NCBI GenBank assembly: GCA_026390815.1
Contig: JAPLFH010000041.1
Coordinates: forward strand, 1-64,000
Source: Ignavibacteriales bacterium
GTDB taxonomy: Bacteria > Bacteroidota > Ignavibacteria > Ignavibacteriales > SURF-24
Direction of reading: 5' to 3'
Length of the DNA: 64,000 bases
In this document: positions 40,897 through 59,156 of the stretch, one piece after another
Numbering within the stretch: position 1 is the first letter of the stretch
Layout of the letters: every line of letters begins with the position of its first letter
Program-made: the position numbers and the translations under genes
The notes under the pieces: generated by a model
Seen by the model: the letters and a program-made list of their open reading frames with translations, nothing else
The model's database searches: none
Told to the model about the DNA's origin: nothing

Positions 40897-41077
40897 GTTT
40901 AACTTTCCACCTTAATACATTTTCCTTGCCATAAATAATTTATCCAAATTACAAATAGTCCCATTAGTCGCTTTACGCCTGCCCACCATAGGTAAATTTG
41001 TAGTTAATCGAGGCTTATTCCAACACAAGATTATAACTCAGCAAGCTTCCTTTTAATCCTTTATAACGTTAGGTAGT
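40897..41077 (-). repeat. attC-like site, family A copy 1
   Basis: A 181-bp gap that starts with GTTTAAC directly after the SDR stop and ends with GTTAGGTAGT (41068-41077). The core shares AGTCGCTTTACGCCTGCC, GGCTTATTCCAACACAAG and TCCTTTATAACGTTA with the gaps at 44800-45000 and, partly, 55900-56083. It serves as the downstream site of the 382-aa cassette gene. Confidence 0.55.
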
Positions 41078-41105: not shown

Positions 41106-42254
41106 TCATTGGATTAAAATATTTCCCTTATATGTTGGCTGATTCTTGCGCTCAGGATTACTTTGTGAAAGTTCATCAAACCGTTCACAAGCTTTGATTA
41201 ATTCCAACTTTTGATTACAAGTATCAGTCTCGTTTAGATAATTACGTTGGTCAATTAATAAATTACTATCTTCTGAAAATGATAATATTTTACAAGATAA
41301 AGGAGTCTTTGGTGGACATCCTTGCGAAGCCAAAACTGATTTTATATAACTTGTAGCAAAAATACCTTCGAAATAAATAGATATACTGCAATTTCGAGAA
41401 TTAGAGTTACATATTTGCAATGAAGTATTTATTAGAGATTTAGCAACTAACGTATTCCCGCTACTATCAAAATATTGGTATGATGGTGGATTCCAATCCC
41501 TTGGAAAGTTAGAAATTAAAATTGCACTGGATTCATATAGCCTGATTTCTTTAGCTAAGTTACAAAGTTTTGATAAGCTACACACATCATTTAAAAATAT
41601 TTTCTTTTTAATGTTTTTAATTGTTTGCTCGTATTGTGTTTTATTATTTTTTAAGGTAATCTGTAAAGGAAGACCCCCAACATATAAGATTCTATTTGCT
41701 TCGGAGATATTAAAATCGTCAATAATAAATTTTGTTAATGTATCCAAACAGTCAAAGTGAAAAAATTGAAATGAATCCAAGTATAAAAATGATTTAGATA
41801 GCATTGGTTGACAAGAAATATCTGAAATAATACATCTTCGATAACTATCCTCAAAAAGAAATAGAACCAAAACAGTTTGCTGTGATTTATCATCATCCAA
41901 TGTAATTAAAGGTGCTCTAACAAAGGCTGAATGTGTTTCAGCTAAACCTAACTTCTTAAGAGTTGGGATAACAGATGAAGTAACATTATCTGTTAATATA
42001 AATGTGCTTTTAATATTTGAAGATAAATTATGCTTTTCTAAAAACTCCATCATTTCTGGATTTAAATCATTCTGTAATTCATTTAAAACTTTATATAGTT
42101 TTTCAGAATCACAATTTTTATCGTCTTCCAATACTAATATGCTATGGGTTATTTTTTGCGGATCAATTTGAAAAGGTGAATCTGAAGAAGAAATATTTAC
42201 AGTTTCCCACAAATGGTTTTCTTTTTTCTTAAAGAAACTTTTAAATAAATTCAT
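41106..42254 (-). CDS. Cassette-borne protein of unknown function
   Basis: The 382-aa protein is not recognised. It has no signal peptide or membrane helix. It is moderately cysteine-rich (about a dozen Cys spread along the chain) and alternates short beta strands and helices (ITHSILVLEDD, TVLVLFLFEDSYRRCIISD, RILYVGGLPLQI). The start is supported by a strong AAGGAGG six bases before the ATG. The unit is bounded by GTTAGGTAGT (41068-41077) and ACTACCTAAT (42269-42278), complementary at 9 of 10 positions. Its N-terminus MNLFKSFFKKKEN resembles MSLFDKIFNKKNN of the cassette protein at 56076-57059. Confidence 0.75.
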   Translation of the reverse strand: MNLFKSFFKKKENHLWETVNISSSDSPFQIDPQKITHSILVLEDDKNCDSEKLYKVLNELQNDLNPEMMEFLEKHNLSSNIKSTFILTDNVTSSVIPTLKKLGLAETHSAFVRAPLITLDDDKSQQTVLVLFLFEDSYRRCIISDISCQPMLSKSFLYLDSFQFFHFDCLDTLTKFIIDDFNISEANRILYVGGLPLQITLKNNKTQYEQTIKNIKKKIFLNDVCSLSKLCNLAKEIRLYESSAILISNFPRDWNPPSYQYFDSSGNTLVAKSLINTSLQICNSNSRNCSISIYFEGIFATSYIKSVLASQGCPPKTPLSCKILSFSEDSNLLIDQRNYLNETDTCNQKLELIKACERFDELSQSNPERKNQPTYKGNILIQ

Positions 42255-42278
42255 AGTAAACCTCCTTCACTACCTAAT

Positions 42279-42557
42279 GATGTGTTTTGTTAAAATACAA
42301 CACAGCCGAATAAATTATTTAAAGATCTCCGTAAATCTTACTTTTGTAAAATTAAAATTATTTCAAAGCTAATTTCCTCAACACCCAAAATGACGAATCT
42401 CTTATTCTCTAATAATGGGTTATCTCAAGGAATTTTATCCTTCACCTCGTTTTTGTAGCAGCGTAAAATTTTAATTAACATATTCAAACAAAAATATTTT
42501 TCTCTTTAGACTTCTCCGTACTATTGACTTTTTCCTTTTTTAAGCGGTTAGGTGTTT
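42279..42557 (-). repeat. attC-like site, family B copy 1
   Basis: About 280 bp, nearly the same as 43822-44098 and 57998-58277: GTTAAAATACAACAC near one end, AAAGATCTCC, TACTTTTGTAAAATTAAAA, and CTTCTCCGTA...TTTTTTAAGCGGTTAG at the other. It ends in GTTAGGTGTTT (42547-42557), which matches the far end of the next unit. The repeats differ only by scattered substitutions. It holds no ORF of note. Confidence 0.6.
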
Positions 42558-42610: not shown

Positions 42611-43216
42611 TTATTCTTTACTAATATTTTCAGGAGGTAAATCTTCCTTTTCGATTGGCGCGACTTTTTTACTCAACATAAACAACCTAAGTGAGGAAAC
42701 GAAACCTGCAATTGTAACTCCATAAATTATTAGCGAGTCGGAAAGCATGGCAAGAACGAATAAAAATAATGCTATTGCCAAATATCTACTTGATTGAATA
42801 ATTAATCCCGTTCGCTGATGTAGAAATAATTTCCCATGTAAACCTCTTCTACTTGCTCTGTATCCAAGCACATTTGTCAGGTGTTGTGTATCAACTATTA
42901 ATAACATTCCCCAGATAAATCCTATGAAAAATTCCTGTAGTAGGTTTGGCATGAATAATAATGCAACGGGCAGCCCAATACCTGCGATTATTGTAGCTGT
43001 AAAATGCCGGAGATTAAATATTTTTAGTTTTGCTACTGATTCCTGTATCGCCGGGTTGCCCTCAATTGTATTTACAGGGTAGCTTTTATAGTGTTTTGAA
43101 TAATGTTCTTTCCTTTCCTTTTCCTGTACAAGAGTTAGTAAATAATCGCTCCACATTAAGAGTATTGTAATCATGCCAGTAATAAGCGGATTATTCATTA
43201 AGAATTTTAATACCAT
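42611..43216 (-). CDS. Cassette-borne multi-span membrane protein
   Basis: The 201-aa protein is unknown. Predicted helices lie about 12-30, 72-90, 93-112, 140-160 and 163-180. A polar loop 33-65 (QEKERKEHYSKHYKSYP) and a TQHLTNVLGYRASRRGLHGKLFLHQRTG loop contain several His and Arg. The unit is bounded by GTTAGGTGTTT (42547-42557) and AAACACATAAC (43246-43256), complementary at 10 of 11 positions. No family assignment. Confidence 0.7.
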   Translation of the reverse strand: MVLKFLMNNPLITGMITILLMWSDYLLTLVQEKERKEHYSKHYKSYPVNTIEGNPAIQESVAKLKIFNLRHFTATIIAGIGLPVALLFMPNLLQEFFIGFIWGMLLIVDTQHLTNVLGYRASRRGLHGKLFLHQRTGLIIQSSRYLAIALFLFVLAMLSDSLIIYGVTIAGFVSSLRLFMLSKKVAPIEKEDLPPENISKE

Positions 43217-43245: not shown

Positions 43246-43287
43246 AAACACATAACGTCGTCCGTCTTGTTTGGCAGGTTATATGTG
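43246..43287 (-). repeat. Short attC-like junction
   Basis: AAACACATAAC and GTTATATGTGTTT form an inverted repeat around a 21-base centre (CGTCGTCCGTC...GGCAG). The left half closes the 201-aa unit. The right half resembles, with two extra bases, the far end AGCACATAAC (43812-43821) of the next unit. It is shorter than a normal attC. The stretch 43288-43461 holds only a second GCATAAC and an ACTGCT/AGCAGT hairpin near 43426-43444, possibly a decayed, gene-less cassette. Confidence 0.4.
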
Positions 43288-43773: not shown

Positions 43774-43821
43774 TTTCTTCCATTCATAATTCTATATTTT
43801 TATTTTAACTAAGCACATAAC

Positions 43822-44098
43822 GACGTGTTATGTTAAAATACAACACAGCCGAATAAATTATTTAAAGATCTCCGTAAATCTTACTTTTGTAAAATTAAAA
43901 TTATTTCAAAGCTAATTTCCGCAACACCCCAATTGACGAATATTTATACTCAATTAATCGGGTTTTCTCTCGTTATTTTATTCTTCTTCCCATTTTTGTA
44001 GCAACTTAAAATTTTAATTTACCTTTGTCAAATAAAAATATTTTTCTCCTTGGACTTCTCCGTTTTATTGATTTTTTTCTTTTTTAAGCGGTTAGCTG
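43822..44098 (-). repeat. attC-like site, family B copy 2
   Basis: Same 280-bp family as 42279-42557 and 57998-58277. It begins after the AA|CG junction at 43821 and ends in GTTAGCTG (44091-44098). That octamer is the perfect complement of CAGCTAAC at 44793-44800, the other end of the M23 peptidase unit. Confidence 0.62.
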
Positions 44099-44118: not shown

Positions 44119-44685
44119 TTAATATGGAAGTGCTTTGTATGATACACCTTCTATTAATCCTATCGGATGCTGTATCGTGTTCTTGAAATCAAAGGGAATC
44201 GTCTGGTCGCTTCTGCCGTTGTTGGTATTCGTAACATCGAAATGTAAATGTGGTGGACCTCCGCTCCCTGAATTGCCACTCATACCGATGGTGTCGCCCG
44301 GTATTACTGCCTGACCTATCTTCACCAAAGCTCCATTTGTTGTTAGATGAACATAGCGCGCATAGGTCGAATCCTCATGAATAACGATGACTACGTTTTC
44401 ATGACCTGCAGTCTGGTCATAGTCCGAATAACTCTCAAGAATATATACAACATGACCTCTTCGGGCGGTAGTAATAAGTGTTCCGATTGGCATCGCAAAA
44501 TCCACAGCATAGCGGAATGTACCATTGTGTGAATATGGGTCGTTGAATTCCTGCGAGCATATATATTCCCGCCCGACCGGATAAGGCAAAACATACTTAG
44601 CCTCTACCGACAGCACCTCATCGTTTTCAGGAGTGCACGATAGAAAAAGAAAAAAAAGCGCACAGAACATAACAATGGACTTCAT
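44119..44685 (-). CDS. M23-family metallopeptidase lipoprotein (copy A)
   Basis: The 188-aa protein has a lipobox (LFLSC, Cys17) and an M23/LysM-less peptidase domain covering the rest. HNGTFRYAVDF supplies the first His and Asp ligands, YARYVHL the general His, and GNSGSGGPPHLHFDV the final HxH. It would cleave peptidoglycan cross-bridges or another glycine-rich peptide in the periplasm. GAGGAAAC precedes the ATG. A near copy lies at 58298-58873 with the same flanks. The two differ mainly in the linker after the lipobox. Confidence 0.88.
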   Translation of the reverse strand: MKSIVMFCALFFLFLSCTPENDEVLSVEAKYVLPYPVGREYICSQEFNDPYSHNGTFRYAVDFAMPIGTLITTARRGHVVYILESYSDYDQTAGHENVVIVIHEDSTYARYVHLTTNGALVKIGQAVIPGDTIGMSGNSGSGGPPHLHFDVTNTNNGRSDQTIPFDFKNTIQHPIGLIEGVSYKALPY

Positions 44686-44799
44686 AGTGTTTCCTCGAGA
44701 TAAGTTGTTGAATCTGGATCAGTACTAATTACAAGCCTTCCGTGTTTAACACTGTATGAAAGGCAATATGCAATTCACTTTCTTGGCGCCAACAGCTAA

Positions 44800-45000
44800 C
44801 GCCATTGCTGATAAGCGGCGCCCAAGAATAGGGAAGCTATATAAAAAACAACTTTCTATTATAAATTAAAATTTATTTAACAGAACAACTAGTCCCATAA
44901 TACGCTTTGCGCCTGCCCACCATAGTTAGCCTTGTATCAGGAGGGGCTTATTCCAACACAAGATTATAACTCTGCAAGCTTCTTTATAACGTTATATGTA
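44800..45000 (-). repeat. attC-like site, family A copy 2
   Basis: The gap begins at the AA|CG junction after CAGCTAAC and continues with CCATTGCTGATAAGCGGCGCC, which also follows the second M23 unit at 58988. From 44900 it carries the family A core (CTTTGCGCCTGCCCACC, GGCTTATTCCAACACAAG, TTTATAACGTTA) and ends in GTTATATGTA (44991-45000). Confidence 0.52.
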
Positions 45001-47756: not shown

Positions 47757-47920
47757 TTTATAGTTTTTGGTTTCCCTGTACCAAACATCCAGGCTGCAAT
47801 AGCTCCAGAAATTGTCATTGCAGTTACGCTGCAAGCATAATCAACAAATACAGTGGATTGAGAAAAAAAGTTGGATGAAGCATATAATCCTAGGTTAACG
47901 GTCTGTAGTTCAATTTTCAT
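47753..47920 (-). pseudogene. Truncated copy of the 144-aa membrane protein at 49381-49815
   Basis: A 55-codon frame whose residues from about 10 on (GLYASSNFFSQSTVFVDYAC, then SVTAMTISGAIAAWM) match the C-terminal third of the protein encoded at 49381-49815. The DNA over about 115 bp is nearly the same. The first nine residues come from the end of the neighbouring gene: its ATG lies in the last codons of the 47910-48632 gene. Its TGA overlaps the next ATG. It is a gene fragment left by a local duplication, though still open and possibly translated. Confidence 0.7.
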
Positions 47921-49380: not shown

Positions 49381-49815
49381 TTAATAATTTTTTTTCCCTC
49401 TACCTAGCATCCAGGCTGCAACTGCTCCAGAAATTGTCATTGCAGTTACGCTGCAAGCATAATCAACAAATACAGTTGCTTGAGAAAAAAAGTTGGATGA
49501 AGCATATAATCCAAAGTTAACTGAACCCCAAAAGAGTAAGGCAAATACAAATCCATACTTTAAACCAGAAACAAAGGTTTTTGCACCAGACCATTTAATT
49601 ACTGTTGTTATAAGAAAGCCCATTGCCAATGATGTAACAACCATAGCCCACACTATTAACTGGTCAGGTTGTTTGTGAAGTTGCTTCATGAATTCTTCCG
49701 ATACAGCAGGATGCGACTGATAGAAGTCTTTTAAAATAAATATATAAGCAGCAGCGTTTAGCAAAAGGTTAATTAATGTGGTAATTAAACCGGATATAAG
49801 AAATTTTTTGTTCAT
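49381..49815 (-). CDS. Small membrane protein, unknown
   Basis: The 144-aa protein has four predicted helices (about 6-26, 52-72, 85-103, 112-136). No family is recognised. A fragment of its 3' end is duplicated at 47753-47920. The ATG overlaps the stop of the upstream 141-aa frame by 4 bp, so the two are coupled. Confidence 0.65.
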   Translation of the reverse strand: MNKKFLISGLITTLINLLLNAAAYIFILKDFYQSHPAVSEEFMKQLHKQPDQLIVWAMVVTSLAMGFLITTVIKWSGAKTFVSGLKYGFVFALLFWGSVNFGLYASSNFFSQATVFVDYACSVTAMTISGAVAAWMLGRGKKNY

Positions 49816-54931: not shown

Positions 54932-55900
54932 AATACTTTATTTAATCTTGATGAAAAAAAATTTAATTACAGGCATAAAATAAGAAACAACTTTTAATTT
55001 CTGTAATAAGAGAGATTATTTATCTATGAACCGCTTTAATAACTTTCTAAAATATTAATTATCAAAGTAAAATAATTTACATTAATTAAGTACATCAAAG
55101 TTACACTAAAAAACTTTCTCCTGTGTCCCGAGTTAAGAATTGCAAATAAAACACATTTTTATGGTTTTACATTTTCATTTTTTTATTTATTTAGAAAGCT
55201 GGGTAAGAACAAAATGAATTTTTAGCCGCCGCATCGATATATATTTGGTTCCGGGTGAGCAAAAGAGCATTGGGTCACCGGGTTTGAAACATTTAATTTC
55301 ATTTTATCCAGCCACCCGATCTATAGTTGATTCATTTAATTAGAACTTTCTAAACTTATTTAGTCATTCCTTAATAAGTCATTTTTAGATTTGGAGTTGG
55401 TAAAACAGACTGCCAAGATCTAAATAATAGTTTTCAAACTCCTTTTCTATTTCCTTCCAAAGTATCTTTTCTGCCAACTGGTATTATGTGTCTTTTGGAT
55501 TCAACATTTCTTGCAATACTTGGCAACTCTTTTTTTTTGTTTTGTTCTGTTTTTCTTCTTCTATAAACTTTAAACACTTTTTATGGATTGACTAATTAAA
55601 CTCCTTTTATCTGAGACAATTATTAAAAATACTTGGATTAAAGACAACCATCTTTTTGCCAAATACAGAGACATTCTGCCGCCTCCATGCCTCTGTATTC
55701 ATCCATTTTCCTCTACACATTTCGTGTCTTATATTTTAGGAGTGCAGTATAAGCCTTTCTTAAAAACAAATCCAACTTTTCTTCCAAATCTATTCCATCA
55801 ACTTTTTATCGTAATTATTTGATGGGCTTAGGATGTCGGCATTCATTGATATATTAAATAAAAATTATCCCCACTGATTCAAAACTAAATCGGAATAACT
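54932..55900. other. Long intergenic region, mostly without identifiable features
   Basis: This AT-rich stretch lies upstream of the sensor kinase gene. It must include that gene's promoter, but I cannot point to it. A GGTGA/TCACC pair at about 55255-55280 is the only notable hairpin. The decayed frame at 55385-55594 lies within. No RNA gene or repeat is recognised. Confidence 0.5.
55385..55594 (-). pseudogene. Possible decayed short gene
   Basis: A minus-strand frame reads SIHKKCLKFIEEEK, CQVLQEMLNPKDT, then a TAA, then YQLAEKILWKEIEKEFENYY and LDLGSLFYQLQI before a stop. The amino-acid make-up is helical and coding-like on both sides of the single stop. No start codon is convincing and no family is recognised. 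Confidence 0.3.
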
Positions 55901-56083
55901 AAAAAATCACCCTCCCATTAAAAATAATTTATCTAAATTACAAATAGTCCCATAAGTCGCTTTACGCCTGCCCAACACCGGATTATCATAGTGATGCCGA
56001 TGGCAAAACTCGGCAAGTTTACCTACCGAAGCTGTTGTTTAGCGTAGGTAGGCTTCGCTTTAATCCTTTATATCGTTATGTGT
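55900..56083 (-). repeat. attC-like site, family A copy 3
   Basis: TTACAAATAGTCCCATAAGT and CGCTTTACGCCTGCCCA match 40945-40982. The centre differs: it carries two added hairpin-like stretches (GCCGATGGC...CTCGGC; TACCTACCGAAGC...GCGTAGGTAGGC). It ends with TCCTTTATATCGTTATGTGT, the last nine bases being the terminus of the following unit. Confidence 0.52.
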
Positions 56084-57059
56084 TCACTTCAAGAATTTGC
56101 CCCACTTCTTCTTTAAGTTTTATGAGATCTATTTTTGGCAAATCTATCATATATTTTTCAACTAACGATATTATTTCTTTACCCTTGTTTTCAAACTTGG
56201 CTTTTTTAATAAGTTTCTTTAAATGATTTTTGACAAAATCATTCGTTTTATATTTTTTATAATTATCACTATTCAAAGCAGTATCCATAAAAAACATATA
56301 TTGCGCTTCTGTACAATATGAAACTATATACTTATAAACTGCATCTATAGGATTCCCATCCGATAGCATCATATTGCCCATCAATTCATAAATTGCAGAA
56401 CATTCATCTAGTTTTTCAATTTTGCTTAATTGTGCATTATATAAAAACCAGATTTCATCTCTTGAAAATAACCTGTCAGAATATTGTAAGATTAATTGAT
56501 TGAGCTTTTTTCTATAATAAAATGTTTTTTGATTAGATAATTCGGTGACGATTAAATCGTGAAGTCTTTGTTTCCCTTGTTGATTATTTTCTAAGAAATA
56601 AATCCTTAGAAAAAGTTCGATTACTTGAATAGATTTGCTGCCAATTTCTAATAAATATTTGAGGCATTGATCTGCAAGCGCATACTCTTTATTTTCTACT
56701 TGTTGTAATGCAAAATGTAACAACAACTTTTCAAAATCCCAAAATTTTTGTTTGTACTTGTTTGCCTCATTGATCAATGAAGGAATTGTTTCCATTGGGA
56801 TTTTTTGGCCTAAGAATATTTCAAAAAGGTCGTCATTTGTGTTGGGACAAAGAATTTTAATACTTTCATAATTTTTTATTTCTTGAGTTAATAGATTACT
56901 TGGAATGAAAGAATGCTCCAATTTCACAAATGAAATCTCTTTGAAATAATCACTGCTGTTTTTTGTAGGGGAAGAACCAGTAACAGGAAATGATTGATTA
57001 GTTTCTAGCCTTGGGATTTCATTATTTTTTTTGTTAAATATTTTATCAAATAAAGACAT
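56076..57059 (-). CDS. Cassette-borne alpha-helical protein, unknown
   Basis: The 327-aa protein has no signal or membrane segment. From about residue 85 it is all helical with repeat-like helices (FALQQVENKEYALADQCLKY), in the style of TPR/solenoid proteins. The start at 57059 is chosen because AAGGAAG lies nine bases ahead; the longer GTG-initiated frame runs into the cassette terminus. The unit is bounded by GTTATGTGT (56075-56083) and ACACCTAAC (57080-57088), complementary at 8 of 9 positions. The stop codon TAA lies inside the left terminus. The N-terminus resembles that of the cassette protein at 41106-42254. Confidence 0.7.
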   Translation of the reverse strand: MSLFDKIFNKKNNEIPRLETNQSFPVTGSSPTKNSSDYFKEISFVKLEHSFIPSNLLTQEIKNYESIKILCPNTNDDLFEIFLGQKIPMETIPSLINEANKYKQKFWDFEKLLLHFALQQVENKEYALADQCLKYLLEIGSKSIQVIELFLRIYFLENNQQGKQRLHDLIVTELSNQKTFYYRKKLNQLILQYSDRLFSRDEIWFLYNAQLSKIEKLDECSAIYELMGNMMLSDGNPIDAVYKYIVSYCTEAQYMFFMDTALNSDNYKKYKTNDFVKNHLKKLIKKAKFENKGKEIISLVEKYMIDLPKIDLIKLKEEVGQILEVNT

Positions 57060-57088
57060 AATGGTAACTTCCTTTTTTGACACCTAAC

Positions 57089-57293: not shown

Positions 57294-57980
57294 TTATTCA
57301 TACCCATATTCAGTAGAAATTATTTTTATCATACTGCATTTAGAATTGTCTAATTCAGCAAGTGTGGGGTCAAATAAAACAATATTATATGAACTAGTTA
57401 ATATATCTTTATCATAACTACTATGATACAACACTCCATCATACTTTTCTTTTTTAATAAGTTCACAGATGAATTGATAAGGTAGGTAATCGACTTCTGG
57501 TCTTGCCGATAATTGTGATTGTGAAAATGTTAATCGAATGCAATGGTTTAGACTGGTGATGTAATTATTTTCAGAAATTGGAAATGAATAAATAAAACTT
57601 ATCATATTAACATTCTTTCTAAGAGAAAATTCACCGATTGTAAGAATATCACTATGCTTTGGTAATACTTCCTTGATGCAAGTATTTACATCCGATGATA
57701 AATACAAATATGATATTCCATCAGGATTAGCTCGACCTCTCACGGCTTCCTCTGGCTTTGGATTAAACATTTTATCACTTTGGAACGGAAAATCTTTGTT
57801 GTCCTCGTATTTATGTATTCTAGCTCTATAAAAAACACTCCCTTTTATTTTTGTGGTTGAATTTAATTTTATAGCAGCTTTCATTGACTCTACAAATTTT
57901 GTATCAACAAAAAATCTATTCTTATATTTAATCTCATCTTCAAACTTGTGATAGTCTTGAAATGCTAAATCATCTATCAT
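57294..57980 (-). CDS. RES-domain protein (putative NAD+-degrading toxin/effector), cassette-borne
   Basis: The 228-aa protein carries a RES-type domain: VFYRARIH near residue 50, RGRANPDGISYLYLSSDVNTCIKEVLP (Arg, Tyr, Glu positions as in RES toxins), and a late YLPYQFICELIKKEKYDGVLYHSS with the conserved Ser segment. Known RES toxins deplete NAD+ and are paired with an Xre antitoxin. No such partner gene is adjacent here. The unit ends GTTATACGGTA (57269-57279) and TACCGTATAAC (57987-57997) are perfectly complementary over 11 bases. About 50 residues precede the domain. Toxicity here is inference. Confidence 0.78.
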   Translation of the reverse strand: MIDDLAFQDYHKFEDEIKYKNRFFVDTKFVESMKAAIKLNSTTKIKGSVFYRARIHKYEDNKDFPFQSDKMFNPKPEEAVRGRANPDGISYLYLSSDVNTCIKEVLPKHSDILTIGEFSLRKNVNMISFIYSFPISENNYITSLNHCIRLTFSQSQLSARPEVDYLPYQFICELIKKEKYDGVLYHSSYDKDILTSSYNIVLFDPTLAELDNSKCSMIKIISTEYGYE

Positions 57981-57997
57981 TTTACCTACCGTATAAC

Positions 57998-58277
57998 GCC
58001 GTGTTTAGTTAAAATACAACACCGTCGAAAAATTTATTTAAAGATCTCCTCTTAATCTTACTTTTGTAAAATTAAAAAATTAATTCAAACTAATTTCTGC
58101 AACAACTATAATTACGAATATCTTATCCTCTAATAATCGGGTTATCTCCAGGTATTTTATCCTTCACCTCGTTTTTGATGCAACTTAAAATTTTAATTTA
58201 CCTTTGTCAAACAAAAATATTTTTCTCTTTTGACTTCTCCGTATTATTGACTTTTTCCTTTTTTAAGCAGTTAGCTG
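57998..58277 (-). repeat. attC-like site, family B copy 3
   Basis: Third member of the 280-bp family (42279-42557, 43822-44098). It starts after the AA|CG junction at 57997 and ends GTTAGCTG (58270-58277), as does the copy at 44091-44098, directly before the second M23 gene. No ORF. Confidence 0.6.
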
Positions 58278-58297: not shown

Positions 58298-58873
58298 TCA
58301 ATATGGAAACGCTTTGTATGATACACCTTCTGTTAATCCTATCGGATGCTGTATCGTGTTCTTAAAATCAAAGGGAATCGTCTGGTCGCTTCTGCCGTTG
58401 TTGCTATTCGTAACATCAAAATGTAAATGTGGTGGACCTCCGCTCCCTGAATTGCCACTCAAACCGATAGTGTCGCCCAGCATTACTGTCTGACCTATCT
58501 TTACAAGAGCTCCATCTGTTGTTAGATGAACATAACGCGCATAAGTCGAGTCCTCATGAATAACTATCACTACGTTTTCATTACCTGCAGTCTGGTCATA
58601 ATCCGAATAACTCTCAAGAATATATACAACATGACCGTTTCGGGCGGCAGTAATAAGTGTTCCAATTGGCATGGCAAAATCCACAGCATAGCGGAATGTA
58701 CCATTGTGTGAATATGGGTTGTTGAATCCCAGCAAGCATATATATTCCCGCCCGATTGGATAGGGCAAAACATACTTAGCCTCTACCGACAGGGCTTCAT
58801 TGATTGCAGGAGACTGATGCTTGCATGATAGAAAAAGAAAAAAAAGCATACAGAACGTAACAATGGATTTCAT
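58298..58873 (-). CDS. M23-family metallopeptidase lipoprotein (copy B)
   Basis: The 191-aa protein is a close copy of the one at 44119-44685, with the same lipobox position (FLSC, Cys17), HNGTFRYAVDF, YARYVHL and GPPHLHFDV ligands. Differences cluster after the lipobox (HQSPAINEALS) and at single positions (LLGFNN for SQEFND). Both peptidase sites look intact, so both copies may be active. The downstream 280 bp and upstream 100 bp are also shared with copy A. The far terminus ACTAAC at 58983-58988 matches its GTTAGCTG end only in part. Confidence 0.88.
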   Translation of the reverse strand: MKSIVTFCMLFFLFLSCKHQSPAINEALSVEAKYVLPYPIGREYICLLGFNNPYSHNGTFRYAVDFAMPIGTLITAARNGHVVYILESYSDYDQTAGNENVVIVIHEDSTYARYVHLTTDGALVKIGQTVMLGDTIGLSGNSGSGGPPHLHFDVTNSNNGRSDQTIPFDFKNTIQHPIGLTEGVSYKAFPY

Positions 58874-59156
58874 AGTGTTTTCTCTTTATTAGTTGTTGAA
58901 TCTGGATCAGTACTAATTACAAGCCTTCCGTGTTTAACATTGTATTAAAGGGAATATGCAATTCACTTACTTGGAGCCAACTACTAACGCCATTGCCGAT
59001 AAACAGCGCCCAACAGGGAAGCTATGTAAAAAGCAACTTTCCATTATAGATTATCACTATCAACCGACTAAAATTTAATTTTGTAAAAAATAATAAAAAT
59101 ATTCAAACAAAATCTATCATAGTTAAAAATGTATCTCCATTAAATTATGCCGGAAA

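Follow-up and report, generated by a model that had tools for sequence, protein, structure and literature searches.

The window analysed here, a stretch of 64,000 nucleotides forming part of one contig (C41) of a draft Ignavibacteriales genome (4.52 Mb in 59 contigs), contains genes separated by long recurring repeats, and the question is whether these repeats are integron recombination sites despite their size. An earlier note had sorted them into three families of attC-like sites, and had suggested that they could be large recombination sites of a new class or, alternatively, standard attC sites followed by a conserved 3' element such as a terminator or promoter. Published attC sites measure 57-141 or 57-142 nt (PMC5371416, PMC2727003), a described range and not a mechanistic requirement, and the repeats here are two to three times as long as such textbook sites. 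The data presented below indicate that the repeats are very probably attC sites of integron cassettes, and that the assembly holds no intact integrase gene for their array.

Family B, put at about 280 bp in the earlier note, was found in the window as three full copies of 283-287 bp with a mutual identity of 85-87%; all sites and ORFs of the array for which coordinates are given here lie on the minus strand. B1 (42272-42554, 283 bp; R'' CACCTAAC, R' ATTAGGT) is located 3' of an ORF of 201 aa (42611-43216), B2 (43815-44098, 284 bp; R'' CAGCTAAC) is 3' of a peptidase M23 cassette (ORF 44119-44685, between A2 and B2) and B3 (57991-58277, 287 bp; R' TTATACGG) is 3' of a second M23 cassette, the ORF of which (58298-58873) is a diverged copy of the first. 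Including flanking half-sites, the two M23 cassettes (44119-44825 and 58298-59013) share about 90% DNA identity, the pair being a duplication within the array. A fourth copy, B4, lies within a second array on contig C9 (C9:146702-146969), and a fifth is represented by a 62-nt 5' half on C26 (C26:5802-5863), outside any array. Among relatives, family B ranges from about 130 to 440 bp. An exact search with the B 3' motif identified 10 stretches in an 84,980-species genome collection, nine in Ignavibacteria/Ignavibacteriales MAGs and one in a Chlorobiota MAG; on this basis the order studied here is very probably Ignavibacteriales. The one-contig genome G024 has an array beside intI in which B sites (385-433 bp) and sites of the type termed D below alternate.

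Family A was also present in three window copies of 178-205 bp, in agreement with the 180-200 bp first proposed, with one more copy on C9 and one on C17. A1 (40897-41074, 178 bp; R'' ACTACCTAA) is the last site of the array and abuts a plus-strand chromosomal gene. A2 (44794-44998, 205 bp; R' GTTAGCTG) is chimeric, its 5' half being A-type and its 3' half D-type. A3 (55893-56081, 189 bp, 3' boundary placed by eye) carries a hairpin segment inserted in the loop of its 5' hairpin; these additional central hairpins, already noticed in the earlier note, are also found in the C17 copy. The third family, C, was not upheld, as alignment separates its two members into a canonical long attC of D type (C2, 57082-57275, 194 bp; R'' CCGTATAA), 3' of a RES-domain cassette, and a remnant (C1, 49276-49375), which aligns to C2 as a degenerate, partial D-like 5' half. 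A further site (58982-59035, R' TTAGTA) consists of a D-type 3' half, with its 5' half unrecognised, and a very short R''-L'' piece fused directly to an R' end was read in the sequence at 43246-43283 and is probably a deleted attC. The boundaries of some sites were placed by pattern or by eye.

Different passenger genes accompany the copies, as had been claimed. Pfam searches assigned two M23 peptidases, a RES domain (57294-57980, between B3 and C2), DUF4395 and, just under the cut-off, DUF6804, while three ORFs gave no Pfam match: the 201-aa ORF before B1, one of 382 aa between B1 and A1 (41106-42254) and one of 335 aa between C2 and A3 (56076-57083). This is an ordinary cassette mix. Two adjacent window genes have in their end regions a 134-bp stretch repeated at 92% identity (49388-49521 and 47766-47899), and a gene piece beside B4 on C9 (L024:17022-17250) resembles the genes with this repeat.

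The D-type sites, which have the motif YAAC-CA-GCNNNT-C-AANNNG-A-CNGC ... GCNG-CNNNTT-ANNNGC-AACGYC-GTTA, separate the cassettes of C9 and C17 and also occur in the intI-bearing arrays of relatives. Over 61 paired sites from the whole order their length ranged from 172 to 376 nt with a median of 207; every site exceeded 141 nt and 31 exceeded 200 nt, with one locus counted twice in this set and a possible insertion in the 376-nt site. The termini R'' (YYYAAC) and R' (GTTRRRY) are present, and in 31 aligned sites 92.4% of the cells of the R and L stems were paired, with 103 double-change cells compared with 39 after shuffling. Covariation in the same 31 sites was 0.388, against 0.105 in shuffled alignments (0/500), and was lost when the partner was slid by 1-3 columns. 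The L''/L' stem (helix 2) was 90.7% paired, with 10 pairs showing double changes, and encloses a variable terminal structure; in C2 itself the pairing of this stem is weak. The extra length of D-type sites is this terminal structure between L'' and L'. Two unpaired bases of the 5' arm, C13 and A20, were invariant in the 31 sites, of which C13 was a selection criterion (sites without the C were filtered out beforehand) and A20 was not. Read on the bottom strand, they become a G and a T at a distance of seven bases, in keeping with the conserved extrahelical G and T described for attC at a spacing of 6-8 nt (PMC2727003).

The D 3' motif, allowing up to three mismatches, was detected in 65 of the order's 116 genomes and in 41 of its 59 genera, and the reversed motif used as a control gave no match among the matches listed for these 116 genomes. 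In a phylum-wide sample it was found in 20/27 genomes of the order and in 1/269 others; the motif is nearly order-specific. A generic, insensitive stem finder picked up only the best D sites, and an Rfam scan of the window gave no match. Within the window's genome, further D-type 3' motifs were seen outside the three studied arrays, at C3:55125, C5:12719 and C32:101508, possibly marking small extra cassette clusters.

When a cassette is excised as a circle, its final G becomes linked to the TT at its own start, and R'' is therefore expected to be reverse-complementary to the sequence just after the preceding GTT. Over all site types this closure was observed at 7.05 of 8 nt in 61 cassettes, compared with 3.51 after shuffling (maximum 4.15 of 2000). 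Cassettes having at least one end of type A or B, 26 in number, gave 7.0 of 8, against 3.59 when shuffled (maximum 4.69 of 5000); one pair is counted twice in these closure data. In G030, 10 of 11 consecutive cassettes agree at all four diagnostic positions. The complementarity extends 10-11 nt from the G before falling to chance, whereas the core site is usually quoted as 7 nt. Within the window, closure is seen from A2 to B2 (R' GTTAGCTG, R'' CAGCTAAC), from B1 to A1 (R' bases TTAGGTAGT, R'' ACTACCTAA) and from B3 to C2 (R' TTATACGG, R'' CCGTATAA), and is poorer in three pairs: B2 to B1, which spans an unrecognised site, C2 to A3, and the half site at 58982 to B3. Closure between R'' and R' means that A and B sites have acted as the ends of cassettes on either side, and since these ends are cassette-specific and obey closure, the sites delimit genuine cassettes, with joining at G|TT. 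Families A and B are thus very probably attC by function as well. Both are flanked by YAAC (R'') and GTT (R') termini that close in this manner, and with the presence of B sites in the intI array of G024 the proposal of a new class of large sites is the better supported of the two made in the earlier note.

Although A and B have these R''/R' termini in common, their internal architectures differ. Long-range complementarity between L'' and L' was undetected in family B, the ends scoring 17.2 compared with 16.3 when mispaired and 17.6 when shuffled; the equivalent values for D-type sites were 33.6, 24.1 and 21.5. This comparison covered B and D ends, and in family A the local 5' hairpin was tested. 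Plain minimum-energy folds of family B gave no long-range structure common to the copies. From their sequences, sites of types A and B appear to do without the long-range hairpin that is regarded as the hallmark of attC.

Each of the two families has a local hairpin beside one terminus. In A it is GGATT-(C)-ATCTC...GAGAT-AATCC, about 8 nt past R'', and was 97.5% paired, with 20 double-change cells (5.9 shuffled) and a covariation of 0.313 (0.078 shuffled, 0/500). In B it is CGGY-(A)-GTGTTG...CATAACAC-GCCG, next to R' and ending on the G of G|TT. Across 24 copies the B hairpin was 91% paired and four pairs showed double changes; its covariation of 0.212 compared with 0.179 shuffled (17/500) gives moderate support, and the outer pairs are broken in some copies of G024, G079 and G050. 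As attC does, both hairpins carry their bulged base in the 5' arm; the identity of this base varies, and in the A hairpin it is absent from the copies of the window's own genome. Halves are also found in new combinations: A2 joins an A-type 5' half to a D-type 3' half, L114 joins an A-type 5' half to a B-type 3' half, and in the L118 hybrid the B 3' module sits between a complete D-type L stem and R'. The mixed half-sites look as if they were modular. At L118, L120 and L121, upstream of B-type 3' modules, the ends of IS110/IS1111-like insertion sequences were seen by eye to abut or interrupt B-type sites.

A profile search of the window's genome for intI gave a best score of 121 bits, in two split pieces, against a curated cut-off of 265; of the relatives, 48/116 have an intI above this cut-off. 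The 121-bit match is a tyrosine recombinase on C9 beside an IS91-type transposase. It was rejected as the missing intI, both pieces of the match being below the cut-off and the adjacent gene carrying Y2_Tnp and Zn_Tnp_IS91 domains. The recombinase gene followed by the transposase gene occupies L025:3824-5833 (C9:153.8-155.8k), within the second array, between D-type and A-type sites. The array of the window is probably an integrase-less cluster, in a draft assembly in which contigs end at arrays. In seven relatives (G020, G024, G030, G033, G038, G050 and G061) the arrays are located 3' of intI on the same strand, array order having been read at loci L128, L108/L109, L129, L133, L130, L145 and L131; the usual divergent order was seen in G047.

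Several explanations were considered for the length of the A and B sites. A usual-size attC joined to a conserved terminator or promoter would account for the hairpins inside B and A and for sites that lie just upstream of the next gene; however, the conserved stretch spans R'' to R' in every full copy, and in D-type sites the L stem encloses the entire extra length. This explanation is improbable, and the 3'-element proposal of the earlier note is the less well supported one but describes the L118 hybrid. It is less likely still that B represents a dispersed repeat of MITE type, or the end of a transposon, placed in the array by chance, and A the end of the IS91-like element on C9. Copy 4 of A does lie directly 3' of that element, and a half copy of B occurs outside the arrays on C26, but four of the five B copies are in cassette arrays, the copies being nearly confined to them, and the bases at the cassette ends are cassette-specific and inversely complementary across the gene. 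A halves, moreover, bound cassettes in genomes and places where the IS91-like element is absent. The dispersed MITE was rejected on array confinement together with closure, and the dispersal away from cassettes that the earlier note had named as a refutation is mostly not observed.

According to the main rival explanation, A and B began as ordinary attC sites, and small MITE- or REP-like insertions then overwrote or displaced their L arms, leaving decaying sites to be carried in arrays. The L118 hybrid, with its full D-type L stem lying before the B 3' module and R', would suit this explanation, as would the small palindromic pieces inserted in sites of several relatives and the lack of an L stem in B. 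Set against it are the many A and B copies that accompany different genes in several genera, R'' ends that match the start of their own cassette as well as D ends do, and an A hairpin kept through compensatory changes; overwriting is considered rather unlikely. The reading put forward here, tentatively and with somewhat less than even confidence, is that the integrons of this order may use modular sites, in which the L-box duplex would be supplied by the local hairpin of one half-site (in A by R'', in B by R') and not by long-range pairing. In the folded bottom strand an R''/R' duplex would form (in the circular cassette its length would be 10-11 bp), and the neighbouring hairpin would take the place of the L-box duplex needed by IntI, each half-site acting as an exchangeable module. 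If true, a local-hairpin L box would explain lengths of up to about 440 nt and the free exchange of halves, and a whole-site hairpin would be unneeded.

The D-type site agrees with attC in every sequence and structure feature tested except the described length. Like canonical attC (59-be; aadA, VCR) it is bounded by RYYYAAC/GTTRRRY, has R and L stems with unpaired spacers, carries a G and a T that are extrahelical on the bottom strand at a distance of seven bases, obeys closure and is oriented as the gene is; it differs in measuring 172-376 nt compared with 57-142 nt (PMC5371416, PMC2727003), a difference that the earlier note had correctly drawn for the sites as a whole. The A and B types differ from canonical attC in having no demonstrated L''/L' stem. 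The arrays on C41, C9 and C17 resemble CALIN (PMC9024848) in having attC-bounded cassettes and no intI above the curated cut-off, with the difference that here the assembly is a draft with contigs ending at arrays. The arrangement in several relatives is that of the 'reverse' integrons of Treponema (PMC3607928), with the array 3' of intI on the same strand, but G047 has the usual divergent order and the sites differ in size and type. Complete integrons were already reported in Ignavibacteriae/Chlorobi, the same broad group, by an IntegronFinder survey, whose account of this group gives neither site lengths nor A or B architectures (PMC9024848).

Sites of 170 to 440 nt across an order show how far the variable region of an attC can grow. 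The accepted anatomy of attC is based mainly on short sites from Proteobacteria, and cassette-bounding sites without a long-range L stem make the true structural need of the integrase testable. Programs that search for attC may apply a size limit of 200 bp. Models built on the canonical hairpin may overlook A and B sites, so that the number of cassettes recognised in these genomes is probably too low. How genes acquire attC sites is a question on which the mixed half-sites may shed light.
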